A stretch of 60,147 nucleotides of DNA from a virus. A program made the translations under genes and the position numbers. Location: the IMG/VR virus record IMGVR_UViG_3300017720_000006, positions 1-60,147 of that record. One strand, 5' to 3'. Of the stretch, positions 37,641 through 55,817 are shown in pieces (within the stretch, counting starts at the first letter, position 1; the number at the start of each line of letters is the position of its first letter). The notes beneath the pieces were generated by a model. That model was not told the origin of the DNA and ran no database searches. It saw nothing but the letters and a program-made list of their open reading frames with translations.

Positions 37641-38086
37641 TCCAATTCATCTCCTAATCTTTCGTACTCCCTAAATTTTTCATCATTCTCATAGTACATA
37701 CTTTTCCATACTAATTCTGCCATTTGAAACCAAACAGCAACCGCTTTGTCTCTAAATTCTGTGTCGCCCCATAAATAATAATGTAGCCACCACTCTTTAT
37801 CAAATCTGCATACTCTTACTTCTTGTTCCCATAGTTCAGGTATCTCACTAAGCACTCTCAGTCTTTGACTTCCTGCAATCGGGTACCAGTTTGGCATACA
37901 TAAAAATGGAGAACGCACTCCTTCTTTCTTTAGTGCTTCTCTCAGTGGTTCATTGGGCGGAACATTTACTATATTCTCTTTTACTTTAGGTTGCTCTAGT
38001 AGCCACCCTATCTTTCTTACATACCAAGTATGTGGTGCTAGAGGTACTAGTTCTGCAGTTTCTCTACTTACTCTGTCATCTGCCAT
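37607..38086 (-). CDS. ParB/sulfiredoxin-fold protein
   Basis: 159 residues. VPPNEPLREALKKEGVRSPF and LCMPNWYPIAGSQRLRVLSE give the G-x-x-x-P and (G)SQRLRAL pattern of the ParB-like nuclease/CTPase fold; the R-R or GxxRxxA motif reads GSQRLRV. The C-terminal half (EWWLHYYLWGDTEFRDKAVA) is aromatic and not recognised. A second protein with the same core layout is at 53529-53915. It overlaps the sulfotransferase (19 bases) and DapF-like (34 bases) genes. Confidence 0.62.
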   Translation of the reverse strand: MADDRVSRETAELVPLAPHTWYVRKIGWLLEQPKVKENIVNVPPNEPLREALKKEGVRSPFLCMPNWYPIAGSQRLRVLSEIPELWEQEVRVCRFDKEWWLHYYLWGDTEFRDKAVAVWFQMAELVWKSMYYENDEKFREYERLGDELEWKHKSKLTDK

Positions 38087-38721
38087 CTTTCAAAATCCTT
38101 CCTGTAGTATTCGTAAATTAATTTCATTACATACTCTTTATCATACCCTGCTAGTTGTGTTATAGAGGCATGATGATTGTTTCTTATTATTCCTAGAGCT
38201 TTCCAAATAGTGTGGTCTTCTAGTCTATGCACTTCTACTTCTGGTTCTCTGTAGTATGTCCATGCTGGTAAATACATCACATGGTAACTGCCCATACGAA
38301 CTAAACTTTTTTCAAATACATCTAAGTTCTGTATAGTACCGAAGTATGCCCCATTCTCTAGGGACTGTATTGCTTTCTTTGTCCAAGTTATAATATCCCA
38401 GTCTACTATAAAGCCTTCATCACAAGCGTGTTTATAAAGACTTTCCCATCTTGTGAGAGGGTTTCTTATTACAGTATAATACTTATAGTTTGGGTACTGT
38501 ATTGCTAACTGGTCGTAGGTTGCGTGTATATTGTTAAATACTGTTCCTTTTGTTCTGTTGTCTATTCCCTCTCTAATAAAATCGGCATTTAATCCTACTT
38601 GCCAATTTCTATGTTGGAATAAAAATTTTTTGTCTTGTTGAGCTAACCATGCTCTTGTTATTGATATACCTCCGCATTTAGGTATATGTACATAACACCA
38701 TTTCTTATCATGTGCGACCAC
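38068..38721 (-). CDS. Sulfotransferase
   Basis: 217 residues, GTG start. CYVHIPKCGGISITRAWLAQ (residues 8-27) is the 5'-phosphosulfate-binding loop (H-x-P-K-C/T-G-G-x-S/T); YKYYTVIRNPLTRWESLYKH is the 3'-phosphate-binding motif (R-N-P-x-x-R-x-x-S). It would move a sulfuryl group from PAPS to a sugar, lipid or protein. Together with the APS-kinase-like fusion at 32.5-33.2 kb it suggests a sulfation activity. The upstream small gene overlaps its start by 14 bases. Confidence 0.85.
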   Translation of the reverse strand: MVAHDKKWCYVHIPKCGGISITRAWLAQQDKKFLFQHRNWQVGLNADFIREGIDNRTKGTVFNNIHATYDQLAIQYPNYKYYTVIRNPLTRWESLYKHACDEGFIVDWDIITWTKKAIQSLENGAYFGTIQNLDVFEKSLVRMGSYHVMYLPAWTYYREPEVEVHRLEDHTIWKALGIIRNNHHASITQLAGYDKEYVMKLIYEYYRKDFERWQMTE

Positions 38722-38875: not shown

Positions 38876-40233
38876 AGATCGTATGTATCTTCCCCTGTTG
38901 TCATTGCTTCTTTCATTTCTGACTTTTCATCTGGGTCAAGGGCAGTGTGAGGCCCAATCTTTAAGGTTTCCCAGTTCATTTCTGAGGTGAAGTTTTCTGC
39001 TGCTCCACTTCTCATCTTATCACACTTAAACTTAATACAAGGTTCTTCGTCTCCCCAATGCTGTATGCTGTAAGCAGCATCAACAGCATCCAAGATTCCT
39101 TTTGAGAATCTTGCCTCTCCTTTCTCATTAGTCTGAAAAGCGGAGAGAACTAGAACTTTGCTCTCTTGTGCGAGAGATTTGAGACCTTTTGAGATCTCGA
39201 TTTGCTCGGTCCAATCATACTGACCTGAACGATTTGGTGCGTTATGGCGTTTCACTTGGTTTAGATAGTCCACTATGACCACGCCCAAGTTTGGTAACTG
39301 GACTTGCTTTTGTCTTACTACGCTAATAATTTTCGCTAAAGTAAGTGATGGGTCGTAATGAATATCTATGAGAGGTTGTCCTTCTTTCAGTCTGTTTCTA
39401 CTAAGTTCATAATGGAACTTGTCGAAATCTTGGTGGTCTTGCCACTTACTGTAGACTTCTTCTCCTGAATTGAATCTAGCAGCCCACCATTGAGCAACTT
39501 TATCCCACTCCATTGGAGAAAGATTCTTTGCTTTGATTCGCTTACTAGGAACACCTGTCTGAATACCACAGATTCTCTGCAACATTTGTCTAGTGTCCAT
39601 TTCAATAGTAAAGTATAGTGCTGATTTGCCCTTATCTTGGGCAGCAGCTGCCACGTTACAACAGGTAAAGGACTTACCTCCACCACGCTGTCCACCGATA
39701 ACTACCAAGTCTTTGGGAGAGAATGTATAGTCCAGGTCGTATTCTTGATTGAGCCCGAGCGGTAAAAACTTTGCTAAGTCCTCATCACTATCGAAAAGCT
39801 CTACAGTTTCCATGTTGTCAGCTTCGTCGTTGGTGTCAACGCTATCTTCCACTTGCACAACAATTTCTTGTAGTAGGTCTATGTTTTCTCTAGCATCTGA
39901 TATAGCTACTTGTGTGTCAACATAGTTTTCGATTTTCGATAATATCTCGGATTGAGTAAATTGATTTTTCAGATAGTCTAATAGAATTATAGACTCGACA
40001 TCTGTTTCAACTGTTTCGATTGCATATATTTTTTCTTGTAAATCACGCGAACGGACTTCTAGCTTTAAATCTTCAAAGCTAGGTAAATCGTTATACTTGT
40101 GAACATGTTTGTCTACTATTCGCCACAGTTTTCGGTACTCACCTTCTGGGAAATAGTGTTCTTTCAGACCATTCCAAGTCTCAAAGTCGCCATTCGCAAG
40201 TATTTGTTTGAGTAATGCACTCTCTAAAGTCAA
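38872..40233 (-). CDS. Replicative DNA helicase (DnaB/gp41-type)
   Basis: 453 residues, TTG start at 40233 preceded by GGGAGAG. The N-terminal helical domain (about 1-140) is followed by the RecA core: LVVIGGQRGGGKSFTCCNVA (Walker A), SALYFTIEMDTRQMLQRICG (H1a), GVVIVDYLNQVKRHN (Walker B) and SKVLVLSAFQTN (H3). It ends in an acidic tail (SEMKEAMTTGEDTYDL). It unwinds the fork with the separate primase. It lies after a terminator, so expression must come from read-through or an unseen promoter. Confidence 0.93.
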   Translation of the reverse strand: MTLESALLKQILANGDFETWNGLKEHYFPEGEYRKLWRIVDKHVHKYNDLPSFEDLKLEVRSRDLQEKIYAIETVETDVESIILLDYLKNQFTQSEILSKIENYVDTQVAISDARENIDLLQEIVVQVEDSVDTNDEADNMETVELFDSDEDLAKFLPLGLNQEYDLDYTFSPKDLVVIGGQRGGGKSFTCCNVAAAAQDKGKSALYFTIEMDTRQMLQRICGIQTGVPSKRIKAKNLSPMEWDKVAQWWAARFNSGEEVYSKWQDHQDFDKFHYELSRNRLKEGQPLIDIHYDPSLTLAKIISVVRQKQVQLPNLGVVIVDYLNQVKRHNAPNRSGQYDWTEQIEISKGLKSLAQESKVLVLSAFQTNEKGEARFSKGILDAVDAAYSIQHWGDEEPCIKFKCDKMRSGAAENFTSEMNWETLKIGPHTALDPDEKSEMKEAMTTGEDTYDL

Positions 40234-40265
40234 TCTGTCTCTCCCAAAACAAAGTTAATATATAC

Positions 40266-40303
40266 AAAAAAGGCGAGGCAATCCATAGATGAACTGCTCG
40301 CCT
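40266..40303 (-). terminator. Rho-independent terminator
   Basis: Read on the minus strand: a seven-base stem AGGCGAG (40303-40297) and CTCGCCT (40277-40271) with a 19-base loop, followed by a run of T (40271-40266). It lies 15 bases after the stop of the repeat helix-turn-helix gene and before the helicase, splitting the P4 unit. Confidence 0.82.
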
Positions 40304-40317
40304 CGGATAGAAATAGT

Positions 40318-41034
40318 TTAGCCTATTTCTTTTTTAGCAGCGCCGTTATAGTCCGCACACTGTAAGCCTCTTCTAGTAAGCATTGTTTTCACGCCTCTTA
40401 CTGTTTTGCCGATTTCATCAGCAATTTCTTCAACAGTCATGCCGTCAATGTCGACACCTGCTAAAGGATCAGCTTTGCTTGAACCTTTGGTTTCTTTCTG
40501 CTTAGGAATAGCATTGATTTCTCCTGCTCTGAGAAGAGATAATGCTTTACCTCTGATTGAGTTTACACTTCTGCCTAGGGCTTCAGCGATGTCCTCAATA
40601 AATGCACCATCATTTACTAATGATACAAATTGCCCTTCTTCTTCCTCGTTGTAAGACTTAACAGTCTCAACTTTAGGTGCAGGTTTAACATGTTCTGTTA
40701 ACTGCATAGAAAGGATTTTTCCTTGAATTGACTTCGCACTAAAGTGTCCGCCTTCAAAGTTTCCAGCAATTTCAGCATATGTGTATACGCCAGAATTGTC
40801 TTGCACGAATGTGCTTAATGTAGCTTCTTGCTCATCTGAGAATGATTTAGAAGCTGAAGCTGAAGCTAGTTCAACCTCGAAACCCATTTTTCTGAGTTTA
40901 GAAGAAACACTTCTTACAGATGTTTCTAACTCATCAGCTGCGTTAGCAACTGTGTTTTGTGAGATAGGTGACTCACTTCCAACGAAATCAACTAATTGTT
41001 GAGTTCTTTCGTCTGTCCATTTAGGTAATGCCAT
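40318..41034 (-). CDS. Repeat helix-turn-helix DNA-binding protein
   Basis: 238 residues with four imperfect helix-turn-helix units: residues about 5-52 (WTDERTQQLV...TSVRSVSSKLRKMG), 64-110 (FSDEQEATLSTFV...SAKSIQGKILSMQL), 128-168 (DIAEALGRSVNSIRGKALSL) and 199-228 (EIADEIGKTVRGVKTMLTRR). The spacing resembles SANT/Myb-like or resolvase-like HTH units. It is probably a DNA-organising or transcription-regulating protein. It directly precedes a terminator, which suggests high expression from P4. The unit is shared with the protein at 49321-49671. Confidence 0.75.
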   Translation of the reverse strand: MALPKWTDERTQQLVDFVGSESPISQNTVANAADELETSVRSVSSKLRKMGFEVELASASASKSFSDEQEATLSTFVQDNSGVYTYAEIAGNFEGGHFSAKSIQGKILSMQLTEHVKPAPKVETVKSYNEEEEGQFVSLVNDGAFIEDIAEALGRSVNSIRGKALSLLRAGEINAIPKQKETKGSSKADPLAGVDIDGMTVEEIADEIGKTVRGVKTMLTRRGLQCADYNGAAKKEIG

Positions 41035-41794
41035 TTTTATTTTCCTCTATCAAATGTTTAATATTACTTATTATTATAACACCTCGGTCACGAGCTGTCG
41101 TTGTTTTTGCTGACTCGATTCCACTCTCATTTATAAGATGAGTGCAGTCCTTTGTCAACGAACTCTTTACTGTAAAACCATATTCATTTAGAACTTTAGT
41201 GGCGTGTGCCTTAGTCGAATATGACTTTAACTTACCTGATATGCAAACAACTCCTATGACCTCTTTTTTTCTAATTACTTTATTATTCCATTTGAAAGGT
41301 AGTGTTGTCAAGTATTGATTAGGGTAGAATTCAGTTTCTAACCACTGAATTAAGTTAGCCGATGCTTTTGGTCCGATACCTGCTTCAGTACAACTTTTCT
41401 CGCTAATATCTTCGATGTGTGATATTCTATCGCATAATTTTTGAGAAGCCGACCGACCAATAAGGGGTATGCTGAAAGCTGGTATAATATCAACCAACTT
41501 ACTTTGTTTTGATTTCTCAATCTCGACAAAGAGTTTCTCAGCTAACTTTGTACTTCCTAATCTTTCTCTTATTTCAGATACTGTTAGTTCGTAAAGTTCT
41601 GCATAGTCTTCGATTTGCAACTTGTTAAGAGTTGCAGGTCCGAGTCCTTTTATCTTAAGAGTCGAAGCAAAGTGTTCTACTTTTTTATCCCACTGTGCTG
41701 GACAAGTAATGTCCTCACAAAATAACTGGTCATTGCGGTATACTAATATACTAGCGCAACAAGGACAGTTAGTCGGTGGTATAATCTGTTTCAC
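41021..41794 (-). CDS. NAD+-dependent DNA ligase, C-terminal half (zinc finger, HhH, BRCT)
   Basis: 257 residues, GTG start with GGAGAG upstream. TNCPCCASILVYRNDQLFCE with the later Cys of DITCPAQWD is the four-Cys zinc finger; FASTLKIKGLGPATLNKLQI and GIGPKASANLIQWL are helix-hairpin-helix units; VIGVVCISGKLKSYSTKAHA through CTHLINESG is a BRCT domain. Adenylation and OB domains are missing; they are encoded at 47649-48590. Together the two make a full LigA. Such a split ligase is known in T5. Confidence 0.9.
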   Translation of the reverse strand: MKQIIPPTNCPCCASILVYRNDQLFCEDITCPAQWDKKVEHFASTLKIKGLGPATLNKLQIEDYAELYELTVSEIRERLGSTKLAEKLFVEIEKSKQSKLVDIIPAFSIPLIGRSASQKLCDRISHIEDISEKSCTEAGIGPKASANLIQWLETEFYPNQYLTTLPFKWNNKVIRKKEVIGVVCISGKLKSYSTKAHATKVLNEYGFTVKSSLTKDCTHLINESGIESAKTTTARDRGVIIISNIKHLIEENKNGIT

Positions 41795-41822
41795 TTAGCT
41801 TCTCTCTCCAAAATATAGATAT

Positions 41823-41862
41823 ATTATAGACGATTTTTGAGCTGCTGTCAAGAACTATTTTT
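41823..41862 (-). promoter_or_regulatory. Promoter P4
   Basis: Minus strand: AAAAATAGTTC (41862-41852), TTGACA (41851-41846), 17 bases, TATAAT (41828-41823). The predicted start near 41816 gives a leader of about 22 bases with GGAGAG before the GTG start of the ligase C-half. It drives that gene and the repeat helix-turn-helix gene up to the terminator. Confidence 0.88.
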
Positions 41863-41894
41863 TGAGTGCTAGATACGATTTTTTGGGACAAAAT

Positions 41895-42008
41895 TTAATT
41901 GTCCTCGCCTTCATAAATGTGAGTGTCCTCAACCATGTTGCGGTTCTCCCACTGCCAGCACAAAGCTTTCCATTTCTTAACTAAAGACTTTATCCAGTTT
42001 TTTATCAT
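41895..42008 (-). CDS. Small basic/aromatic protein (37 aa)
   Basis: ATG 42008 is preceded by GGAG (GGAGATATATATG) and lies inside the end of the SGNH-like gene; TAA at 41897-41895 is 33 bases before promoter P4. The product starts IKNWIKSLVKKWKALCWQWE, an amphipathic basic helix, and ends in an acidic tail (VEDTHIYEGEDN). It resembles the 39-aa protein at 22464-22583 in layout. No known family; real gene likely but not certain. Confidence 0.55.
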   Translation of the reverse strand: MIKNWIKSLVKKWKALCWQWENRNMVEDTHIYEGEDN

Positions 42009-42726
42009 ATATATCTCCAATAATTCTCTCTGCCATCAACTTGTGACCTTCCTCTAATGGATGGTCTTTCGGTCCGAATGGCACTTGTTCTCTTTTACAC
42101 ATGTCATAGAAAGCTTCTTCTTGCAAGTGAGGTAGTTCATCTAGATAGTCATTTAACTTCATGTGTCCTACCTCCCACAAGTTATTAGCGCCTTCCATTC
42201 TTTGCTCGTCTAATATTTTTAGTGTGGGTTGTATTTGTCCATCAGACAAATTGTAAAATAGATATGGTATGTTCTTTGATTCTAAAAAATACTTTATACT
42301 TATCATATGATTAAATGTATTTATAATATTGTATCTCATAGAACGAACGTGTATAGCCCAACCCTGTATAGCTTTCCACTGTTTCAATGTCATGCGTGGG
42401 TGAAAGTGTGTTTCTGATTGTTCACTAATTTTTAAATTTTTCTTATCAAACTTATACTTTACCCAAACTGCACTTCTCCATGTGTTGTGGTCGTCAAGAT
42501 ACTCAAATCTATTTATTCCTGACCAACAGATGATGGCTAGCTTTGCTGGTTTCCGTATCATGTCATCCATGGTTGTTCTCCATATTCTGTCATTACTTCC
42601 ACCAACTTTAGCATTATCCCACCAAGGTTGACCAAATTCTTCACTAACAATGTTAGCAAAGATATCACGAGGACGGTTGCGTATCTCCATGCCTCTAACA
42701 AAACTACATCCGTTCCAGTAAATCAA
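41977..42726 (-). CDS. SGNH-hydrolase-like protein
   Basis: 249 residues from TTG 42726, overlapping the carbamoyltransferase stop. IYWNGCSFVRGMEI supplies the GxSxxxG-type block I (GCSF), VGGSNDRIWR the Gly/Asn block, and DHPLEEGHKLMAERI the late DxxH block, as in SGNH/GDSL-like phage proteins (DUF6071 type). Blocks are in the right order. It could remove or add an acyl group on the product of the adjacent carbamoyltransferase; inferred. No signal peptide. Confidence 0.68.
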   Translation of the reverse strand: MIYWNGCSFVRGMEIRNRPRDIFANIVSEEFGQPWWDNAKVGGSNDRIWRTTMDDMIRKPAKLAIICWSGINRFEYLDDHNTWRSAVWVKYKFDKKNLKISEQSETHFHPRMTLKQWKAIQGWAIHVRSMRYNIINTFNHMISIKYFLESKNIPYLFYNLSDGQIQPTLKILDEQRMEGANNLWEVGHMKLNDYLDELPHLQEEAFYDMCKREQVPFGPKDHPLEEGHKLMAERIIGDIYDKKLDKVFS

Positions 42727-44069
42727 AATACTCTCACTCCGTAGTTGCTTTGAAATCTATCAGCGTCTTCCACAGTATTAACCATAGGTTCGCCTTTAAT
42801 ATTCAAACTTGTATTGAGCAACATAGGTACTCCTGTTCTCTCGTAATATTCTTCTAGTATAGGTCGCAGTGCTGACTTAGAGCTAGGCTTGACCACCTGG
42901 ACTCTTGAGGTTCCATCAATGTGTGTGACAGAACTGTAGTCGTGTTTCGCTTTTGCAACGAATTGCATGTATTCGTTTCCGTATCCTTCAAAATATTTTT
43001 CATAATACTCCTCGAGGATTGCGGGAGCAAAAGGACGAAACTTTTGTCTTCGCTTAATATTATTGACTGTGTCTTTAATATCATAACGAACATCACCAAG
43101 CAAACTGCGATTCCCGAGGGCACGAGGCCCAAATTCTGCTTTTCCATTTGCTACTCCTACTACTTTTCTTTTAAGTAGTGTATCGACTACTAACTTAGGA
43201 TTGATACTTCTTGTTATATCATGTCCTAGGAAAGTGTCTTCGAATTTTATTTTCTGTTTAGTTTTTGCAAGTACGCAACCTAACGCACTACCTGCATCGC
43301 CTGGGTTTGGAAATATCCACATATTGTCAAACATAGGTCTTATCTTACTGTTTGCCACACAGTTTAACGCAACCCCACCAGCATACGCTACATTTGGTCC
43401 ATACTTCCTTGCTTTTGCAAAGATGTCTAGTAGCTCTGTTTCTAGATGAGCTTGTGCTGACGCAGCTATATCTTCAGGAGTGTGCCAAAACCACTTACGT
43501 CTCTTAAAACCTTTGTGATTATTTTGGTGTATTTCTTCCTGCATATCTATAGATATATCCCCAAAGGCAGCCATGCCCATAGTAATATACTCATCTTCGT
43601 TTGGTTTTAGTCCTATTCGTTTCGTGATTGCACTATAGAATAATCCTAGTGACCATGGGTATTGCTTTGACCATACTTTCTTACCCTCTACCCATATTGT
43701 TGCTGTATCAAACTCTCCAATAGCATCGATTACAACCGTGCTGTCAGGAGTGAAAGGAGCAGAAAAATAAGCAGCGGCAGAATGGCTTTCATGGTGAAAT
43801 ATATTTCTGTGAGTATACGGTCTGCACGGCGTTGTTTTTGCCATTCTGTACATGTCTCGTCTCGCATTCTTGATATCAGTATGTTCATAAAAAATTGTTT
43901 CATCATAATTAAATTTACTCTGTAATGTGTTGAAGTGAAAATCTGGTATTGTTTTATCATTTTTTACACGAGTTATTCTCTCTACTTCTGTTGCGTAGAT
44001 AACCTTATCTCCTTCCACTACAGCGTATGCTGCATTGTGAAAGCCCTCGCTAATCCCTAAATATCTCAT
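42723..44069 (-). CDS. O-carbamoyltransferase (NodU/CmcH family)
   Basis: 448 residues from ATG 44069, where the natural N-terminus MRYLGISEGFHNAAYAV begins; a longer frame reaching 44258 lies inside the upstream gene. EVERITRVKNDKTIPDF, FHHESHSAAAYFSAPF (metal-binding His pair), VAYAGGVALNCVANSKI, KAEFGPRALGNRSLLGD and KFRPFAPAILEEY are family hallmarks of the Kae1-like and YrdC-like parts. It carbamoylates a hydroxyl of a sugar, nucleoside or antibiotic-like molecule using carbamoyl phosphate and ATP. Central enzyme of the 42-47 kb cassette. Confidence 0.94.
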   Translation of the reverse strand: MRYLGISEGFHNAAYAVVEGDKVIYATEVERITRVKNDKTIPDFHFNTLQSKFNYDETIFYEHTDIKNARRDMYRMAKTTPCRPYTHRNIFHHESHSAAAYFSAPFTPDSTVVIDAIGEFDTATIWVEGKKVWSKQYPWSLGLFYSAITKRIGLKPNEDEYITMGMAAFGDISIDMQEEIHQNNHKGFKRRKWFWHTPEDIAASAQAHLETELLDIFAKARKYGPNVAYAGGVALNCVANSKIRPMFDNMWIFPNPGDAGSALGCVLAKTKQKIKFEDTFLGHDITRSINPKLVVDTLLKRKVVGVANGKAEFGPRALGNRSLLGDVRYDIKDTVNNIKRRQKFRPFAPAILEEYYEKYFEGYGNEYMQFVAKAKHDYSSVTHIDGTSRVQVVKPSSKSALRPILEEYYERTGVPMLLNTSLNIKGEPMVNTVEDADRFQSNYGVRVF

Positions 44070-44430
44070 TCTTCTTCGGAAATACCTCCAAGATTTTGCT
44101 GTCCATTGAGAAACACTCCGTATGTCCGCCAAATTTATGCTCCGTTTTATGTCTATCTTTCTGAAACTGGTTGTGTAGTTTTTGCTCGAATCTCCAACAA
44201 TCGTATAGATTCCCCTGCCACAGTCTCTGAATCCGAATGTCGTAGTTTGTAAATCCACGCCCTCTTCGTACTGCGTCTTTGAAGGTTCTTCCTTTTGCGA
44301 TGCCTACTTTTATAGTTTCTCGTTCCCATGTTTTCATATTTACCAATACAATACCATACAGTATTCCTTCCCTTTCTTTTTCTTCAGGGTAGTTCTTAAA
44401 ATATGTTTCGTTATATATTCCCCCAGCCAT
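44050..44430 (-). CDS. GIY-YIG-superfamily (T5orf172-like) protein
   Basis: 126 residues. GILYGIVLVNMKTWERETIK followed by VGIAKGRTFKDAVRRGRGF, a YDCWRFEQKLHNQF Glu/His helix and GHTECFSM match the T5orf172/MUG113 branch of GIY-YIG nucleases (K-V-G-x-T/A-x-x-x-x-x-R; E-x-x-L-H; E-x-F). It may be a nuclease or a DNA-binding domain. It overlaps the carbamoyltransferase by 20 bases and the cupin upstream by one base (TAATG). Possible homing-type passenger in the cassette. Confidence 0.72.
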   Translation of the reverse strand: MAGGIYNETYFKNYPEEKEREGILYGIVLVNMKTWERETIKVGIAKGRTFKDAVRRGRGFTNYDIRIQRLWQGNLYDCWRFEQKLHNQFQKDRHKTEHKFGGHTECFSMDSKILEVFPKKNEIFRD

Positions 44431-44960
44431 TAAAAGAATGTCCTAATTATTTCCCAACATTCTTTCTCAGACTTTTTGAAGTCCTGTAAAGGACAACGAA
44501 ACGTTTTATCTTTTCTTCTTATTGTCAAGTTGTTTCTAGTTTCCTTGTCAAATATGTGTAATCTTGTTATGGTTTGTTCGGGACACTTCACTCTGTGAAA
44601 GGTATCTGCTTCGCTGATATACCATGCACCCGCTGGGAGTGAGTATGTACCGTCTGGTCGTATATGAATACTTTCTTCTATTACATTTCTTCTGAAATGT
44701 GGATGTATGCAGTTGGTTTCTACTATCTGTAGTAGGCTATCTTTTGACCTCTCCCACTTACATACTTCGTTGACTAGTCGCCCTCTTATTACTTGGGACT
44801 CAAATCTAATTCTATGGGTATGAAAATCATTTACTTCAACAGGTGTAAGGTCAGGGCAATAGAAGTTCCATCTAACTTGCTTGTTAGATTCGTGCAGGAA
44901 TATAAATCCTAATCCACTATACTCAGGTTTAACTCCCCAAGATTTTAACTCATCTATCAC
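44430..44960 (-). CDS. Cupin-like protein B (paralogue of 47113-47652)
   Basis: 176 residues, GTG start. SGLGFIFLHESNKQVRWNFY, CPDLTPVEVNDFHTHRIRFE and SQVIRGRLVNEV are shared with the protein at 47113-47652, as are a late H (DTFHRVK) and the C-terminal CPLQDFKKSEKECWEIIR. The HTHR and FHR histidines lie where a cupin holds its metal. It may be an isomerase, lyase or binding protein for a sugar-like substrate. Paralogy is clear; activity unknown. Confidence 0.72.
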   Translation of the reverse strand: MIDELKSWGVKPEYSGLGFIFLHESNKQVRWNFYCPDLTPVEVNDFHTHRIRFESQVIRGRLVNEVCKWERSKDSLLQIVETNCIHPHFRRNVIEESIHIRPDGTYSLPAGAWYISEADTFHRVKCPEQTITRLHIFDKETRNNLTIRRKDKTFRCPLQDFKKSEKECWEIIRTFF

Positions 44961-45348
44961 TTATTCTGTTCCTTAGTTGTGTTGTTGAAAAGGAGTGCGC
45001 TCTACTCGTATAGAATATTTCGTGTAATCCTTTGCCTGTGAAATGTTTTTCACTCCAATCTTCTCCAACAAATCTTATATGTATTGGAGTTGCCTCTAGT
45101 AAATCTAGCAGGCTTTGTTCTGTATCGTAAGGTATGATTTCATCTACATACTTTACTGCGTTTAGTTGGACATATCTTTCAAATACTGACTGAATAGGTT
45201 GATTTTTGTCTTGTCTGTCTATGCTAGGGTCTGTTTGTAATCCTACTATTAAGTGGTCACAATGTGCTTTTGCCTCTTTTAGCATAACGATATGTCCTGC
45301 ATGAAGCAAATCAAATGCTCCACATGTAAATCCTATTCGTCTATCCAT
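44950..45348 (-). CDS. Cytidylyltransferase-like nucleotidyltransferase (TagD type)
   Basis: 132 residues. GFTCGAFDLLHAGHIVMLKE is the HxGH nucleotide-binding signature, LIVGLQTDPSID and QSVFERYVQLNAVKYVDEII follow as in glycerol-3-phosphate cytidylyltransferases, and HSFSTTQLRNRI matches the RTxGISTTxLxxRI motif. It would activate a phosphorylated small molecule with CTP or ATP. In the cassette it stands between the PP-loop protein and cupin B, overlapping both. Confidence 0.88.
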   Translation of the reverse strand: MDRRIGFTCGAFDLLHAGHIVMLKEAKAHCDHLIVGLQTDPSIDRQDKNQPIQSVFERYVQLNAVKYVDEIIPYDTEQSLLDLLEATPIHIRFVGEDWSEKHFTGKGLHEIFYTSRAHSFSTTQLRNRISDR

Positions 45349-46079
45349 TGTTGGTTTGGTTTTTTCTTTTTAAATGTTCCTTCTTGTTGTTTGTAAACTG
45401 ATTTATTTGCTACTTGTACTGCGTGTTTCCACTCAATACATTTTATACATTCTCCGCATGGAATGTAACCTCCATCATCTTTCTTCTTTATCTTTTTAAC
45501 TAGGTCTGTTTTTCTATCAGGAGGGTAACAGTACCAGATGTTGTGTTTTGCAAAGTCCCATAAGTTCTTTGCTATCATTGAAACTACTTCTGATTTATAT
45601 AGTGTTTCAAATGGGAATATATTTATAGGAGCATACATTACTTCTTGTGCTGATACTCCATGTAGGTCTAATTGATATGACCTTTGAGCCAAGTAAGCTC
45701 TTATAGGAAACCTTAATTGTAGCCTTTGTGCAAAAGAATCTTCTGCATTTGCTCCCCATACTAAGTATCTCCAATCATTGTCTGGGTTTCCAAGTAATAA
45801 AGTTGCAGCTGCTGACATATGTTGATTGACAGCTAATGCTAGAGTTACTTGTTGTGGTAACTCATTTCTATCTACTACTAACGGAATCTTGAAAAAATCA
45901 CATTGTTTCTGAGCATAGTGTAATTGTGCATCTTTTGCTGGGTGGTTGTGTGGATTATTATATAGATGTAATCCTACTGGTTTCAATCCATTTTCTTTTG
46001 CCCACCACAAAGCAGCAAAGCACTCAGCCCCACCACTTACATTTACTATACTATTTATAGACTTGTCTAAGCCTTCCAA
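45333..46079 (-). CDS. PP-loop ATP pyrophosphatase, QueC-like
   Basis: 248 residues from TTG 46079, with AGGAG 10-14 bases upstream. SIVNVSGGAECFAALWWAKE is a modified PP-loop (SGGAEC in place of SGGxDS); PVGLHLYNNPHNHPAKDAQL follows. NIWYCYPPDRK and PCGECIKCIEWKHAV give the four-Cys zinc site typical of QueC (7-cyano-7-deazaguanine synthase). No queD, queE or folE is visible, and the altered PP-loop Asp and Ser suggest another adenylated substrate. It overlaps the radical SAM gene by 29 bases. Confidence 0.75.
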   Translation of the reverse strand: MEGLDKSINSIVNVSGGAECFAALWWAKENGLKPVGLHLYNNPHNHPAKDAQLHYAQKQCDFFKIPLVVDRNELPQQVTLALAVNQHMSAAATLLLGNPDNDWRYLVWGANAEDSFAQRLQLRFPIRAYLAQRSYQLDLHGVSAQEVMYAPINIFPFETLYKSEVVSMIAKNLWDFAKHNIWYCYPPDRKTDLVKKIKKKDDGGYIPCGECIKCIEWKHAVQVANKSVYKQQEGTFKKKKPNQQWIDE

Positions 46080-46818
46080 TTCTTTTCTCCTCTCTATCTG
46101 TTACTTTCCTATTACAATTTGTGCATATAGGATTAGCACTTCTATTGCCATATAACAGCTGTGTTCTTATCTTTATAAGTTCTTCATTATTATTCCATAC
46201 ATCAAAGAAGTTATCATGTGCAATGTTGCCATATACATTTGTGTCTGTCCAATCATTACAACATAACTGTATAGTTCCGTCATGATGTATCCACCCTTTA
46301 CTTGCTGGTAATATGCAAGGTGTGTTAATTTCACTTCTATCTGTTGCGATTCTTTCGTATAGTTCAGTTCTATTTTGAACTTGAATAGGTGTTTCACCCC
46401 ATTCTTCTGGCTCTATACTTTGATCCCAATACCTGTGGGTAGCACGAGGCATAAGTTTTTTTCTTGCTTCCATCTGATGTTTACTCTCGTAAGAGTTGAT
46501 GATTAGCGAATCAAACATGTTAAACCATTCATACTTTTCTTTTAGTTTATATCCATTTGTCAAAATTCTAGTCTTATACTTCCTATCACTCGAATGTAAA
46601 ATTTCCACAAGTTTCTTGAATTTTGGGTTTAAACTGTTTTCTCCTCTGCCTGTAAAACAGATGAACCCAGTATAATCCTTACAATCATTTATGAACTTAG
46701 TAAAAAGTTCTACACTCATATATTCTTTTTTGTTTGGATATGAAGATGACCTCGGGCAATAATTACACGATTCGTTACAGATACCACATACATCTATATT
46801 GATTAGTATGGGGTTCAT
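46051..46818 (-). CDS. Radical SAM enzyme with SPASM-like domain
   Basis: 255 residues. NIDVCGICNESCNYCPRSSS carries the CxxxCxxC iron-sulfur motif; FICFTGRGENSLNPKFKKLV has the GGEP-like strand (TGRGE), KTRILTNGYKL the next strand. CILPASKGWIHHDGTIQLCC and ICTNCNRK supply the extra Cys of a SPASM/twitch cluster. It generates a 5'-deoxyadenosyl radical; relatives mature peptides or modify sugars/aminoglycosides. No precursor peptide is obvious nearby. ATG at 46818, four-base overlap with the membrane protein upstream. Confidence 0.88.
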   Translation of the reverse strand: MNPILINIDVCGICNESCNYCPRSSSYPNKKEYMSVELFTKFINDCKDYTGFICFTGRGENSLNPKFKKLVEILHSSDRKYKTRILTNGYKLKEKYEWFNMFDSLIINSYESKHQMEARKKLMPRATHRYWDQSIEPEEWGETPIQVQNRTELYERIATDRSEINTPCILPASKGWIHHDGTIQLCCNDWTDTNVYGNIAHDNFFDVWNNNEELIKIRTQLLYGNRSANPICTNCNRKVTDREEKRIGRLRQVYK

Positions 46819-47123
46819 GACAATACTTTAGTGAATATTCCTGTTAATAATATGAAACAAGCTATGCCGTTTAAAAGTATTAATGCTCTATCCTTCCAGA
46901 TAAACGCTACAAATAACCAACCTAAACACCCAATAAAAGATAATATTGTATCAGCAAGATTTGATACTCCTGCCGACCTAATAACCATAGCTGTAAGTAG
47001 TACTCCAGAGGCTGCCCACTTGATATACCAATCAGTTGTCTGTTTTGGTGTGGCACTCTTATAAATTCTATTACTATTTTTTTGTTCTTCTTTACTAAAG
47101 ATTATTTCTTTTTTATTTGCCAT
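46815..47123 (-). CDS. Small membrane protein of the cassette
   Basis: 102 residues. After a charged start (KEIIFSKEEQKNSNRIYKSA) there are three membrane segments: WAASGVLLTAMVIRSAGVSN, ILSFIGCLGWLFVAFIWKDR and LILLNGIACFILLTGIF. The (D)WYIKW...GWLFVAFIWKDRALI layout is familiar from small marine-phage membrane proteins. Within this operon it could anchor the pathway or transport its product; inferred. Confidence 0.68.
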   Translation of the reverse strand: MANKKEIIFSKEEQKNSNRIYKSATPKQTTDWYIKWAASGVLLTAMVIRSAGVSNLADTILSFIGCLGWLFVAFIWKDRALILLNGIACFILLTGIFTKVLS

Positions 47124-47652
47124 GGTTTATAATCTCCTCAATAATCTCCCAACATAAATGGTGTGGTAATTTAAAATCTGCGATAGGACAATGATGATAG
47201 TCATATCTATGATACACTCCTAGACCTTGTATAGGTTCGCCCATTTGTTCTAGATGCGTAATAGCAGGGGTCTCTGCCCATGCTATGTGATATTCATTTT
47301 GGTGCATATAGTAACTGTCGCCCTCATTTAGATACTCTACTTCTCCTTCAAATATATCAATGCCGTTGTCCAGTTTTTTAGACTCTCCACCTTTTAGTTT
47401 ACTCTTGTCTCCAACGCAGTCAATAGCCCAAAGCTCTTTATTGCCCTCAACTAACTCTGCTTTTCTGTTGCAGAACTTACCTTTAAGAATCTTAGAAATA
47501 AAACTGTATCTATGATTGTGATACTGTTGTACTCCAATAGGCAGTAGCTCTGGATGATAGAAATTATATCTTTCCTCTCCATCCATAATCCATATGAAAC
47601 CTAAGCCGTTCCTTCTAGGATTGCCAAGTTTTCTGTAATCATCCACTGTCAT
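47113..47652 (-). CDS. Cupin-like protein A (paralogue of 44430-44960)
   Basis: 179 residues. NGLGFIWIMDGEERYNFYHP, ELLPIGVQQYHNHRYSFISK and ILKGKFCNR parallel the GLGFI, NFYCPDL-P and HTHR-x-x-F-x-S-x-I-x-G of protein B; MHQNEYHIAWAETPAITHLE supplies the late His; the end CPIADFKLPHHLCWEIIEE matches the CPLQDFK...CWEII end of B. Putative metal-binding cupin. ATG overlaps the ligase stop (ATGA). Two diverged copies in one operon suggest a heteromer or successive steps. Confidence 0.72.
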   Translation of the reverse strand: MTVDDYRKLGNPRRNGLGFIWIMDGEERYNFYHPELLPIGVQQYHNHRYSFISKILKGKFCNRKAELVEGNKELWAIDCVGDKSKLKGGESKKLDNGIDIFEGEVEYLNEGDSYYMHQNEYHIAWAETPAITHLEQMGEPIQGLGVYHRYDYHHCPIADFKLPHHLCWEIIEEIINHGK

Positions 47653-48590
47653 ATTCTTTTTACTATTCTAGGTATTATTTCTCCACTTCGTATTACTTCT
47701 ACATCACAACCAATCTCTAGTTCCAATGCATCAATATACGCCATGTTATGTAGGGTTGCCCTACTAACTGTCGCCTCACCGATTACACAGGGCTCCAGTA
47801 TTGCTACTGGTGAAACAGCACCTGACTTCCCGACATTCCATTCAACATCTAAGAGTCGAGTAACTACTCCTGCCTGTCTAGTTTTTAGAGCGAAGCTGCC
47901 TCTAGGGTGGTGTGAGGTGTAGCCTAATTTTTCAAAATATTTATTAGAGTCGACTCGTACCACTTTACCGTCCTGAGGGAACATGCTGTAATCACTTTGT
48001 GTGACAGTTGAAAATCCATTATGTACAAGTTCTCTCATATCTTCTACCCAACTATCGGTTGGATATGGCTGAACACCATACGCTATGAAAGTTACATCTC
48101 TGGATTTAAATTCTTCTATATCTTTGAGATTCAAAGCACCACTCGCATAATTTCTAGCGTTAGGAATACTTTTGGGAGCAACTACTTCTCCAGTAATTTG
48201 TCTTACCCCATAAAGATTATCCAATCGTTCTGGTACTATACATCTCATTTTATCAGTAATATCTAGCCCTGCTTTACCATCACCACGAGTCAACGCCTGT
48301 GTCAGTACGCCATCTATATAAGTTATAGACACGGCTGCACCGTCCAACTTGGCAGTCATTATATGTGGTTGTTTGATTTCCCAATCTGGTTCTTTATCTT
48401 CTCCGACAAAGACTTTCTGTAATGAATACATTGGGTAGGGATGTTGAAATCGTTCTTCTGTGGAATCATATCCGACCTTACTTTCAAGTTCGGTATTTTC
48501 TACTAGTCTATCGTATACTTCGTCAGGCAATATAGGATTACCTTCTGCATACATCTGATTACAATATTCTAGGTATTCTGTTTTATTCAT
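47649..48590 (-). CDS. NAD+-dependent DNA ligase, N-terminal half (adenylation plus OB)
   Basis: 313 residues. HIMTAKLDGAAVSITYIDG has the KxDG nucleophile Lys; LTRGDGKAGLDITDKMRCIV, ITGEVVAPKS, NARNYASGALNLKD and GSFALKTRQAGVVTRLLDVE are nucleotidyltransferase motifs; CDVEVIRSGEIIPRIVKRI closes the OB fold. The NAD-binding Ia domain is shortened, and zinc finger, HhH and BRCT domains are absent; they are at 41021-41794. ATG 48590 is at the predicted transcript start of P5, so the mRNA appears leaderless. Confidence 0.93.
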   Translation of the reverse strand: MNKTEYLEYCNQMYAEGNPILPDEVYDRLVENTELESKVGYDSTEERFQHPYPMYSLQKVFVGEDKEPDWEIKQPHIMTAKLDGAAVSITYIDGVLTQALTRGDGKAGLDITDKMRCIVPERLDNLYGVRQITGEVVAPKSIPNARNYASGALNLKDIEEFKSRDVTFIAYGVQPYPTDSWVEDMRELVHNGFSTVTQSDYSMFPQDGKVVRVDSNKYFEKLGYTSHHPRGSFALKTRQAGVVTRLLDVEWNVGKSGAVSPVAILEPCVIGEATVSRATLHNMAYIDALELEIGCDVEVIRSGEIIPRIVKRI

Positions 48591-48596
48591 AAGTAT

Positions 48597-48636
48597 ATTA
48601 TACAGAATTTTTGGGTTCGTGTCAAGTATTATTTTT
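48597..48636 (-). promoter_or_regulatory. Promoter P5 (leaderless)
   Basis: Minus strand: AAAAAATAATAC-type box, TTGACA (48625-48620), 17 bases, TATAAT (48602-48597), then six bases and ATG at 48590. Transcription starting seven bases after the -10 would begin with the A of ATG. It drives the ligase N-half and the 42-47 kb cassette. Confidence 0.88.
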
Positions 48637-48641
48637 TGATA

Positions 48642-48944
48642 CTATAAATAAATCTTATCGAGTATTTCTTTGAAATGTGTTTCTAATACTCCTTTGACTT
48701 CTGATATGGAAAGAATCTCAACTAATGCGTCAAAAAGTTCTCTAGTGTTATCCAAATCAATAGGTAAGGCAATGCCCTCCCTTGTAGGTTTCCATTCTTC
48801 ATCAAAGTCTTGATAATACTTCCTTATGTGTAGATACTCTGTGCCACGAAAATTGTTTATCATAACATAAACTTTTTCATTCTTTTCTTCGTTATAATGA
48901 ATAACCTTTTCGTAGACAGGTGTTTCGTTATGTAGTTCTATCAT
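48642..48944 (-). CDS. PC4-like single-stranded DNA-binding coactivator
   Basis: 100 residues. EKVYVMINNFRGTEYLHIRK, YYQDFDEEWKPTREGIALPI and DNTRELFDALVEIL follow the PC4/Sub1 (p15) pattern: a strand ending F-x-G, (Y)L-x-I-R-x-Y, a turn with W-x-P-T-x-x-G-I-x-L, then the dimerising helix. In bacteria and phages such proteins bind single-stranded DNA. It may act in transcription or replication at the phage promoters. It lies just upstream of P5. Confidence 0.78.
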   Translation of the reverse strand: MIELHNETPVYEKVIHYNEEKNEKVYVMINNFRGTEYLHIRKYYQDFDEEWKPTREGIALPIDLDNTRELFDALVEILSISEVKGVLETHFKEILDKIYL

Positions 48945-49200
48945 TTTTTAGTATAGCTGCTAAAGGCACGATAGAAGTTACATTGTCAGGTTGTAATAAT
49001 CTGTAAGAATCAGTATCCCAACAAAACAAGAGAACTTGTCTTGGATTCGGCTTAGCTCGATTCTTTTTTGATTGTATATATTTATTGTCGAAGTCACTAG
49101 TGCAGACATTATACTTTAGTCTACGACTGTTTTGACTTCTGTAGGTGACGATTGCATCACCTGCATCGTCTAGTTTTCTAACAAAATCGTCCTTTTTCAT
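48928..49200 (-). CDS. Small phage protein, SH3-like, unknown
   Basis: 90 residues. KKDDFVRKLDDAGDAIVTYR, then a basic linker (YIQSKKNRAKPNPRQ) and LLFCWDTDSYRLLQPDNVTS. The last strand pattern (F-x-W-D-x-D-x-Y-R-x-L-x-x-x-x-V-T-x-I-x-P-L) is that of small regulatory or virion-associated phage proteins. Function unknown. It overlaps the PC4-like gene by 17 bases. The 84 bases upstream hold no gene, only the terminator of the preceding unit and an AAGGAAAG ribosome site. Confidence 0.62.
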   Translation of the reverse strand: MKKDDFVRKLDDAGDAIVTYRSQNSRRLKYNVCTSDFDNKYIQSKKNRAKPNPRQVLLFCWDTDSYRLLQPDNVTSIVPLAAILKNDRTT

Positions 49201-49277
49201 TCTTTCCTTGTAGGTGGTTAATATCTATTAGCGTCCTATCAATGGTAAGGTTCTTACGAGCTATTTCTGTTAGATAC

Positions 49278-49308
49278 AAAAATACTCAGGGAGGTTGCCC
49301 TCCCCAAG
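49278..49308 (-). terminator. Rho-independent terminator with GCAA tetraloop
   Basis: Minus strand: ten-base stem CTTGGGGAGG / CCTCCCTGAG (49308-49299 and 49294-49285, two wobble pairs) closed by a GCAA tetraloop, followed by TATTTTT (49284-49278). It lies 12 bases after the stop of the helix-turn-helix gene, so most P6 transcripts should end here. Confidence 0.85.
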
Positions 49309-49320
49309 ATTCAGGGGTAA

Positions 49321-49791
49321 TTAATCGTTAAGTTCGTTAATTAGTGTTGCAAAATACATAGCAGCTTTACCTGTTAGCTTACTTATGATTGCAGTATCGG
49401 CTTCTTTACCCATATCTGAGATAGCTTTTGCTAACTCGTCTTGAGCAGCTGCGACATTTACTCTGCCACCGCCAGTTCCACCACTGCTTTTTGCAGCTGG
49501 AGTTTTCTTTACATATACACCAGCTTTTGTTAGAATCATTCTGACACCATTTGGGCTCTCGCCTAATTCTTCAGCAATCATCTTTACAACTTCCATACTG
49601 TTGTCTGGAGTTGGTTCTTCCGCAGTATACATCTCTACTGCTTGAGCTTTAGCTTCATCTGTCCAAGCCATTCTTTTTCTCCTTTTTGTTTTACCAAATT
49701 TTGATTCAAATTCACTAAGAGTTAGAGTATTGCGGTAGCCAGGACACCAACCTGTGGCTTCTAGCTGTTGCGTATAAAATCTGTCACTCAT
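49321..49791 (-). CDS. Helix-turn-helix protein, paralogue of the repeat protein at 40318; two possible starts
   Basis: The frame from ATG 49791 encodes 156 residues: an N-terminal part (SDRFYTQQLEATGWCPGYRN, basic KTKRRKR) and, from an internal ATG at 49671 with the strong AAGGAG at 49679-49684, a 116-residue protein beginning AWTDEAKAQAVEMYTAEEPT. The latter has IAEELGESPNGVRMILTKAG, the same helix-turn-helix unit as the protein at 40318-41034, followed by a Gly-rich linker and a helical C-terminus. The strong internal site suggests the short product is the main one, or that two forms exist. Confidence 0.72.
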   Translation of the reverse strand: MSDRFYTQQLEATGWCPGYRNTLTLSEFESKFGKTKRRKRMAWTDEAKAQAVEMYTAEEPTPDNSMEVVKMIAEELGESPNGVRMILTKAGVYVKKTPAAKSSGGTGGGRVNVAAAQDELAKAISDMGKEADTAIISKLTGKAAMYFATLINELND

Positions 49792-49816
49792 TAGCTTATT
49801 TCCATAATATAGATAT

Positions 49817-49856
49817 ATTATAACGGAATTTTGACCTTGTGTCAAGAACTATATTT
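49817..49856 (-). promoter_or_regulatory. Promoter P6
   Basis: Minus strand: AATATAGTTC-type box, TTGACA (49845-49840), 17 bases, TATAAT (49822-49817). The predicted start near 49810 leaves 19 bases before ATG 49791. It drives the helix-turn-helix gene ahead of the GCAA terminator. Confidence 0.87.
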
Positions 49857-50212
49857 TAGAAGCTATAACCGTAGGTTAAAATATCTTCCCGATATATTGA
49901 GTAAACTAAAGTTTTAGTCTTCATTGTATACCACCTATTCCACATAGGTACTATCTCCTCATCCTTCAAAATTGATGTATCTTTTGGATGTAGTTTTGCA
50001 AATTTAAGTTCATCTTCCCATGCCTCGAAACGAACTAAGTGGTCACAATTCTTATACAGAACTACTTGTTTTTCAGGAGGGTATTTGGCTATCCAATTAT
50101 CCAATCCAATATAATCCAAGCTCTCCATATACAGATTAACTACTCGTTCATAGGGGTTTCGTACAACTCCGATAGTTTTGTTATCGTAGTGAAGTAATAA
50201 ACTCTGATTCAT
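49856..50212 (-). CDS. Sulfotransferase-like protein, N-terminally truncated
   Basis: 118 residues. KTIGVVRNPYERVVNLYMES matches the 3'-phosphate-binding motif of sulfotransferases (V-x-R-N-P-x-x-R), and NCDHLVRFEAWEDELKF resembles the region after it. The 5'-phosphosulfate loop that should precede it is absent: the protein begins only 12 residues upstream. Either a decayed remnant or a different small domain. It abuts promoter P6 (its TAA ends at 49856). Upstream small gene overlaps by 32 bases. Confidence 0.62.
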   Translation of the reverse strand: MNQSLLLHYDNKTIGVVRNPYERVVNLYMESLDYIGLDNWIAKYPPEKQVVLYKNCDHLVRFEAWEDELKFAKLHPKDTSILKDEEIVPMWNRWYTMKTKTLVYSIYREDILTYGYSF

Positions 50213-54295: not shown

Positions 54296-54982
54296 CTATG
54301 GTTTCCAGTTATACCAATTCTTCCTATAATATGGGTTACCTTCACTTCGGTCCTGAAAGTGAAAGCTAATTGATATTCGTGGGCTTAGAGTATCCACTCT
54401 ATGATACTTACCTTTCGGTATGTAAAGTAAGTCGCCATCATCTAAATCTACTACTTCTTCCAAAGTAGCATCTTCCCAGCGACCTCCCTTTTCTGCAAAC
54501 TCCTCATAAATGTACCAGCGTATTTTACCAGATACATGAAATAAAAAGTTGTCAGTAGAATCTGCATGAATGGGAAAGCACTTAGCATCTTCCTGCTTAC
54601 TGCAGTAAATGTTTGCTTGACCAACACCGTAATGTTTTTCAAACTCTTGACATTGCTTCCACATAGTTTCACTTAAGAACTCACTAAGTGTGAGTATGAA
54701 ACTACTTCCATTATTCCACAGATTCCAAAGTTCTGTGCGTGTCTTTTTAGTCTTGTCTTTTTTCTTACACCACTTCTTTCCGTCAGGCAACACTACCTGT
54801 AGCTGTGGTGTTCTATCCCAAGTTCCTATACTTATCTGATTGAGATAGTTATCTAGTTCTTCCCAACTAAAATGTTTTACAAACGGATTATCTTTCCGTT
54901 TGATGTAAAAATGTTTCTTCCCCTTGTATTTTAAGTGAAACTCATCAACCCCGATGGGATGAATTAGTTCTTCAAATCTCAC
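54296..54982 (-). CDS. JmjC/cupin-8-type Fe(II)/2-oxoglutarate oxygenase
   Basis: 228 residues, GTG start. Double-stranded beta helix: AKCFPIHADSTDNFLFHVSG (HxD and 2-oxoglutarate Lys/Arg area), KIRWYIYEEFAEKGGRWEDA, VDLDDGDLLYIPKGKYHRVD (distal His in YHRV) and ISISFHF. This is the ribosomal-oxygenase-like cupin branch that hydroxylates protein residues. Target unknown. It overlaps the GT8-like gene by 11 bases. Confidence 0.82.
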   Translation of the reverse strand: MRFEELIHPIGVDEFHLKYKGKKHFYIKRKDNPFVKHFSWEELDNYLNQISIGTWDRTPQLQVVLPDGKKWCKKKDKTKKTRTELWNLWNNGSSFILTLSEFLSETMWKQCQEFEKHYGVGQANIYCSKQEDAKCFPIHADSTDNFLFHVSGKIRWYIYEEFAEKGGRWEDATLEEVVDLDDGDLLYIPKGKYHRVDTLSPRISISFHFQDRSEGNPYYRKNWYNWKP

Positions 54983-55817
54983 TTAACTTCTCCAATGTTT
55001 TCAACTCCCTACTATACTTCCAATACACCTCCATTATGTCTTGTCGTTTATGACTAGCTTTTGCATGAGGAGAGTACTTCGGATGCCAAGGTTGATAGCT
55101 TAACGCTGTCAAATGCACTTGCCATATTTCTTCTAAGGCTAACTGTTCTTTATCATCCATTGGGTATGGTTTTTTGTATGGAAATGCTGTATCAGCACCA
55201 TCAAATGAGTTCCATCTTGCATCTAGTTCCTGCACTATCTCTTTTGATTTCTCTTTGAAGGGAGAACCTATACCTGCCATGAAATCCCATTTATATGTTG
55301 TAGGCCACTTTGCTTGTTCTTTTATAGGGTGTATGTATTCTTTTGCTTTTTCACAATCTATCAACATGACACTATCACACCACCAACCTCTTTCGTGGTC
55401 AGTGCCTTTAAATTTATCTGAATTCATTTGTAGTGCATCCCAGACCATTCCAAATGGTTTACCTTTTAAGTCTGTTCTCCAAAGATGTTGTATATCTCTA
55501 AAGTTTATCATATCGCAGTCAGTATACAAGGCTCTTCCTTTAAAATTACACATCTCTGGTATTGCATATCTAAAACAAGTAAATGGTGTTCCCCATCCTT
55601 GTCTTGTCCAATCAGGGAACATACTTGGTCTAAGCCAAGTGACTTCTACAGGGTGGTCAGTATTTCTTAGTATACTGTATAGATATATTTGCTCTGGGTG
55701 TCTATCAAAAGTTTCACTTGTTCCAACAAATAAACGAATTGGTTCGTTATCCCAGTTATCTCTTTTAAATTGTGGAGTTATCTCCCAATCTTCTTCACTT
55801 ATCATAGTGTGTGACAT
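54972..55817 (-). CDS. GT8-like glycosyltransferase
   Basis: 281 residues. IRLFVGTSETFDRHPEQIYL and EVTWLRPSMF are followed by FTCFRYAIPEMCNFKGRALY, TDCDMINFRDIQHLW (DxD), and SVMLIDCEKAKEYI. VHLTALSYQPWHPKYSPHAK provides the late His/Lys motif. Same family as the gene at 16977-17633, distant paralogue. It probably transfers a hexose. It overlaps neighbours by 11 and 23 bases. Confidence 0.8.
   Translation of the reverse strand: MSHTMISEEDWEITPQFKRDNWDNEPIRLFVGTSETFDRHPEQIYLYSILRNTDHPVEVTWLRPSMFPDWTRQGWGTPFTCFRYAIPEMCNFKGRALYTDCDMINFRDIQHLWRTDLKGKPFGMVWDALQMNSDKFKGTDHERGWWCDSVMLIDCEKAKEYIHPIKEQAKWPTTYKWDFMAGIGSPFKEKSKEIVQELDARWNSFDGADTAFPYKKPYPMDDKEQLALEEIWQVHLTALSYQPWHPKYSPHAKASHKRQDIMEVYWKYSRELKTLEKLSEI

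Follow-up and report, generated by a model that had tools for sequence, protein, structure and literature searches.

In phage T5, the NAD+-dependent DNA ligase is encoded by two genes that lie beside a gene for a D5-like regulator. The locus analysed here, from a seawater virus related to phage T5 (IMG/VR record IMGVR_UViG_3300017720_000006, a virus record whose whole 60,147-base stretch is called the window below), shares the two subunit genes, ligN and ligC, and the neighbouring D5-like regulator, but differs in carrying a gene cassette between the ligase halves. The cassette proteins resemble enzymes of better described systems: BtrN, the dehydrogenase of butirosin biosynthesis that oxidises 2-deoxy-scyllo-inosamine to a ketone (PMC9012708); a viral 5-hydroxymethylcytosine (5hmC) carbamoyltransferase, whose system has a thymidylate-synthase homologue (dCMP hydroxymethylase) (PMC8670742); and QueC, for which the substrate motifs YxQxHxxE, VPxRN and YPDC have been defined (PMC13329287). 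Our preferred reading of this viral cassette is a pathway for small-molecule or sugar decoration, built from transferable modules.

The cassette consists of ten overlapping genes and a small conserved open reading frame (ORF) on the minus strand, between a promoter at 48625, before ligN, and another at 41851, before ligC. All genes listed by the first-pass annotation are present in the order it gave, with families as described or close to it, and its claim of one tightly overlapping unit holds: from ligN (48590-47649) through the gene for an SGNH-like hydrolase (end at 41977), each gene starts 1-29 bases before the stop of the one ahead of it. LigN (47649..48590, minus strand) is the ligase N-half with adenylation and OB domains (Pfam DNA_ligase_aden 2.6e-26, DNA_ligase_OB 1.1e-23; phrog_3359 4.9e-105); ligC (41021..41794, minus strand; phrog_3498 7.3e-56) encodes the C-half, followed by the D5-like regulator, a marker of the T5-like lineage (40318..41034, minus strand; phrog_323 1.9e-43). 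On the minus strand of the cassette region, the perfect sigma-70-type sequence TTGACA-17-TATAAT occurs at three sites (49845, 48625 and 41851), and two of these form the promoters before ligN (48597..48625) and ligC (41823..41851). Promoter-like matches overall showed no excess (34 observed versus 34.8 in shuffled sequences); the promoter argument rests on the perfect matches and their position, and for 41851 also on conservation in 13 relatives. Together these features suggest that ligN and the cassette form one transcription unit from 48625 to the small ORF, and that ligC and the D5-like gene would be transcribed from their own promoter. The looser pattern TTGACN-16/18-TAWAAT has nine matches in the window, eight of them on the minus strand.

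Besides the split ligase and the D5-like regulator, the T5-like phage markers in the window include a polymerase, helicases and SbcCD. The window aligns at about 99.85% identity with a 105,272-base record of its own species (G001). This record wraps round the alignment and its ends join up, pointing to a complete genome. Megablast of window positions 40000-50000 against described phages gave no match. T5-like relatives came from scans of viral contigs; removal of identical intervals left 33 contigs spanning ligN to ligC. Separate N and C subunits were the rule in all T5-like relatives examined, and not an interruption peculiar to the window phage. Because gene order and overlaps recur in these relatives and dN/dS is low (about 0.05-0.28 wherever dS was unsaturated, in four pairwise comparisons, and as low as for the ligase halves), the cassette is confirmed to be beyond chance. 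A conserved neighbourhood, the expectation of the first-pass annotation, was thus found in 33 distinct T5-like marine intervals, in which particular gene pairs hold.

The genes for an O-carbamoyltransferase (CarbT) and the SGNH-like protein were present in 32 of the 33 intervals, always together, and those for a radical SAM enzyme and a PP-loop protein in 24, again always together. A GIY-YIG-like gene occupied every interval (33/33), once without the cassette, in a contig that lacks CarbT. Other genes were optional: a TagD-like cytidylyltransferase (13 intervals), two cupin-like proteins (cupA and cupB, 11 each) and a small membrane protein (12), which in one contig shares the interval with the GIY-YIG-like gene alone. 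GIY-YIG-like, CarbT and SGNH genes were the sole content in eight contigs (group b), and a 90-kb record of this group (G007) had no PP-loop match anywhere. In a distant relative (G008), the interval holds radical SAM, SDR, 2OG oxygenase, CarbT, peptide deformylase and SGNH genes, and a PP-loop gene (30% identical) lies outside it. The interval therefore combines two or more modules that can be separated with some optional genes, and this comparison does not support the single pathway supposed by the first-pass annotation. In two distant relatives, a peptide-deformylase-like gene stands between CarbT and SGNH (L066:8634-9074 and L067:3366-3809).

CarbT (42723..44069, minus strand; 448 residues) belongs to the NodU/TobZ/Nol-like family (Carbam_trans_C 1.4e-47, Carbam_trans_N 1e-34); its start was corrected to M64 of the listed ORF (44069), where conservation begins. 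Its nearest solved structures are novobiocin carbamoyltransferase, GdmN and TobZ, enzymes that act on sugar-containing or macrolide natural products, a point in favour of sugar or cyclitol chemistry. With NodU, TobZ, GdmN and the Nol-like enzymes of marine phages it shares both Pfam domains and the conserved motifs, HHxSH and E-x-GPRALGNRSLL being invariant, whereas the phage protein is shorter and is paired with the SGNH protein. The closest phage records are about 42-48% identical. At window positions ~43775-43800, the codon after HHESH differs by several bases among near-identical genomes (Ser in the window, Tyr in L003 and L004, Ala in L002 and L005), hinting at diversifying change beside a likely metal site.

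The SGNH-like hydrolase (41977..42726, minus strand; DUF6071 5.6e-8) has residues S8, G42, N45 and H222 invariant in 12 sequences, assigned by inspection to the Ser, Gly, Asn and His catalytic blocks. Around the catalytic His most members have PKDHP, placing Asp at -1, whereas SGNH hydrolases are expected to have it three residues before. A tblastn search of 50,697 phage records gave no match to this protein. Scanning with CarbT of G008 yielded T4-like marine contigs, in ten of which (L227, L229, L230, L231, L232, L233, L234, L236, L239 and L240) the major head gene (phrog_138) is followed directly by CarbT and then by an SGNH-like gene; an eleventh (L238) has the CarbT-SGNH pair, but the contig breaks off short of the head gene. 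Between the T5-like and T4-like lineages, the SGNH proteins match by profile (98.7%, E 1.9e-16); some of them sat in the profiles that found them, and independent members were hit too. Because the pair also directly follows the head gene in these unrelated contigs, CarbT-SGNH is shown to be a transferable module shared with unrelated marine phages.

The context of CarbT varies further. In Pelagibacter phage Mosig EXVC030M, as in the cassette, radical SAM, SGNH and CarbT genes lie together; the Mosig cluster differs in having an ArnB-like aminotransferase, a methyltransferase and an epimerase, and no QueC-fold gene was detected there. In Pelagibacter phage HTVC008M, CarbT adjoins an NAD-synthetase-like gene, a UDP-glucose dehydrogenase and a glycosyltransferase, and in S-WAM1 it lies among replication genes. 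A contig with a terminase gene (L226:4200-13516) carries CarbT and SGNH together with several radical SAM genes and a further two whose products show SGG/TGG PP-loop-like motifs; for these two, any Pfam match is marginal at best, and we do not count them among the relatives of QueC.

The space between the ligase halves could instead be a hotspot in which unrelated activities (the CarbT-SGNH module, the radical SAM-PP-loop module and passengers) have accumulated, each with its own role. The nested, separable gene content and the occurrence of CarbT-SGNH alone in other phages speak for such a hotspot, as does the TagD/RfaE-II-like cytidylyltransferase (44950..45348, minus strand; CTP_transf_like 2.5e-15). 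At least 600 viral stretches encode proteins related to the latter, which is common across marine viral contigs; a group-b relative, for example, has one on its contig away from the ligase interval. TagD is therefore not tied to the cassette. We nevertheless regard a hotspot of unrelated genes as unlikely, given the tight overlaps, the single promoter-to-promoter unit, the purifying selection on all parts and the meeting of radical SAM, CarbT and SGNH genes in unrelated marine phage loci.

The second pair, shown in the T5-like clade, consists of a BtrN-like radical SAM enzyme and a QueC-fold enzyme. For the radical SAM protein (46051..46818, minus strand), the top solved relative is BtrN (4m7s), matched over its full length (residues 5-244; phmmer 7e-14), and searching with a profile built from 14 relatives recovers BtrN at 3.6e-33. 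The invariant cysteines are C14, C18 and C21 (CxxxCxxC) and the twitch residues C168, C186, C232 and C235; all seven cluster cysteines align with BtrN, as does an NR pair. The first-pass annotation had labelled this protein radical SAM/SPASM; the radical SAM part stands, and the SPASM part gives way to a twitch-type assignment, indicated by the BtrN match and the four twitch cysteines. The two enzymes differ in that their sequences are distant and no aminocyclitol synthesis genes were seen in the window; oxidation of an aminocyclitol by the phage enzyme is a prediction.

The PP-loop protein (45333..46079, minus strand), an ATP-dependent enzyme that would represent a new subfamily, matched PF06508 in 17 of 19 members (best 3.3e-8), and its profile aligned with eight canonical QueC sequences in hhalign (96.1%, E 3.7e-9). 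The AlphaFold model of the window sequence was too weak (pLDDT 55) and its Foldseek list was not used; that of the L066 member (pLDDT 82.4, pTM 0.82) gave QueC (3bl5) as the top Foldseek match, with Cap9 (9nto) and TtuA among the next. Structure prediction, Pfam and profile comparison thus agree with the earlier description of this protein as QueC-like. With the QueC family, including Cap9 and QatC, it shares the fold, the ATP-loop region and the CxxCxxC zinc motif: zinc cysteines in the pattern C...CxxCxxC were present in 19/19 members, with a longer or variable first spacing. It differs in having SGGx[DE][CS] as the ATP loop (19/19) in place of the exact SGGxDS (0/19), in lacking folE, queD or TGT partners, and in its substrate motifs, each of which was found in 0/19 members, compared with 5/8 (YxQxHxxE), 8/8 (VPxRN) and 7/8 (YPDC) of the canonical controls. 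Judged by the features tested, it is a QueC-fold protein that falls outside canonical QueC, and because the fold is kept while the three substrate motifs are not, its substrate has probably changed. No match was found by tblastn in the 50,697 phage records, nor any cellular relative in two genome-contig scans, which used short peptide patterns and may miss distant kin. As the searches relied on short patterns or tblastn, the absence of the subfamily and of the gene combination from the searched cellular genomes and described phage records is limited evidence of novelty.

These findings bear on the possibility of DNA hypermodification, in which the cassette product would be a nucleotide, carbamoylated or amidated, destined for the DNA of the phage, similar to 5hmC carbamoylation or to the 7-deazaguanine phages. 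The 5hmC enzyme is a phage carbamoyltransferase of CarbT's family (PMC8670742), QueC-fold proteins make deazaguanines in many phages, and the cassette is placed among replication genes. However, the PP-loop protein lacks the canonical substrate motifs, the radical SAM enzyme is BtrN-like with a twitch domain and not QueE-like, and no thymidylate synthase or hydroxymethylase, FolE, QueD or TGT was found in the records searched. PF01227, PF01242 and PF01702 (FolE, QueD and TGT) had no match in the window, G001, G007 or G008, and PF00303 (thymidylate synthase) none in G000-G002, with positive controls in both cases; QueE was not searched as a family. The thymidylate-synthase homologue that accompanies the 5hmC enzyme is thus missing from these records, and a 5hmC route is not supported. 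Neither is a preQ0 route: the first-pass annotation had judged a plain preQ0 pathway unlikely from the window, and this judgement now extends to the 105-kb G001 and to the missing QueC motifs. For DNA modification as the destination, which it had also proposed, no positive evidence was obtained, and we consider DNA hypermodification improbable.

Alternatively, the QueC-fold enzyme might modify proteins by joining a small acid to their N-terminus, perhaps in counter-defence; Cap9 of type IV CBASS carries out such a reaction, and the same has been proposed for QatC. Cap9 is among the top structural matches, QatC has also lost the canonical substrate motifs (PMC13329287), and a substrate could be supplied by the small conserved ORF. 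This basic ORF of about 37 residues (41895..42008, minus strand; probable ATG start at 42008) overlaps the end of the SGNH gene and ends in ...VEDTHIYEGEDN; it is a real ORF, as first annotated, with a C-terminus kept in relatives. However, it accompanies CarbT-SGNH also where the PP-loop gene is missing, no candidate partner protein beginning with a conserved MG- was identified, and the host would have to supply the deazaguanine. Protein modification therefore seems to us distinctly improbable.

We favour a pathway in which carbamoylation is the shared step and the radical SAM and QueC-fold enzymes provide an added step; the family assignments bear out the earlier view that these proteins fit small-molecule or glycan modification. 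A sugar or glycan product fits better than DNA modification because of the BtrN-like radical SAM enzyme, the weak match of the optional small membrane protein (46815..47123, minus strand; DUF6552 4.1e-15, supported by hydropathy) to SWEET/MtN3 sugar efflux proteins (MtN3_slv 0.0012), and the glycosyltransferase or nucleotide-sugar genes that adjoin relatives of CarbT in certain other marine phages. On these grounds, we see about an even chance that the cassette serves to modify a sugar or cyclitol by oxidation, by acylation or amination, and by O-carbamoylation, and that the product is meant for a glycan of the virion or the host surface. On a sugar or cyclitol taken from the host, the radical SAM enzyme would turn a hydroxyl into a ketone. 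The QueC-fold enzyme would spend ATP on activating a carboxyl or carbonyl group and would attach an amine or amide. CarbT would place a carbamoyl group on a hydroxyl, and the SGNH protein would trim or transfer an ester of the acyl or carbamoyl type. In phages that have them, the cytidylyltransferase may activate the unit as a nucleotide conjugate, the cupins may isomerise or oxidise it and the membrane protein may move it; the product would most likely be placed on a virion or host-surface glycan.

Several points weigh against sugar or cyclitol decoration. The interval lies among replication and regulatory genes and not virion genes, and no glycosyltransferase or sugar-nucleotide synthase was found inside the cassette, glycosyltransferase-like genes being located elsewhere in the window. 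Several glycosyltransferase calls in related contigs are putative, made by reading the sequence with no Pfam match, and the sugar-transporter likeness of the DUF6552 protein falls below the curated Pfam cut-off. BtrN-like ancestry leaves the radical SAM substrate unfixed. Group-b phages have CarbT and SGNH but lack the radical SAM-PP-loop pair, so the modules need not share a substrate. The radical SAM-PP-loop pairing is striking, but in a tree built from the ligase and the proteins encoded next to it the presence of each gene changes only about twice, too few changes for a statistical test of linkage.

We know of no aminocyclitol-type biosynthetic route from viruses. A bolder and, in our view, unlikely version of sugar or cyclitol decoration is that the BtrN-like dehydrogenase and the new QueC-fold ligase would produce a cyclitol or sugar bearing an amino or amido group, for carbamoylation by CarbT, with CarbT-SGNH, as found behind the capsid gene, serving as a general virion or host decoration across unrelated marine phages.

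Among the remaining residents, cupA (47113..47652, minus strand; weak PHROG matches) and cupB (44430..44960, minus strand) are about 27-35% identical and share in alignment an HxH...H motif (H47, H49 and H122 in cupB numbering); no solved relative of the cupins was found, and cupA had no tblastn match in the 50,697 phage records. The GIY-YIG-like gene (44050..44430, minus strand; T5orf172 0.0015, just below cut-off; phrog_681 7.8e-10), previously counted as a cassette member, is real, and it belongs to the locus rather than to the cassette; its residence in all intervals led us to drop a homing-endonuclease passenger. Elsewhere in the window are genes for an asparagine-synthase-like protein with a glutamine amidotransferase domain (29105-30613), an APS-kinase-like P-loop protein with a weak C-terminal cytidylyltransferase-like match (32457-33221), two Sulfotransfer_2-like proteins (38068-38721 and 49856-50212, the second short and below cut-off), and a cluster of JmjC-like, GT8-like and 2OG-Fe(II) oxygenase genes (54296-56963).

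In marine phages, many carbamoyltransferase and radical SAM genes are annotated by family alone. Here, they fall within a unit that divides into modules with clear predictions of chemistry, including a QueC-fold subfamily with a probably changed substrate pocket that was absent from all the cellular genomes and described phage records searched. A nucleotide product would amount to a new DNA modification; if glycan decoration is true, viruses would borrow antibiotic-type chemistry to dress their virions or the surfaces of their hosts.

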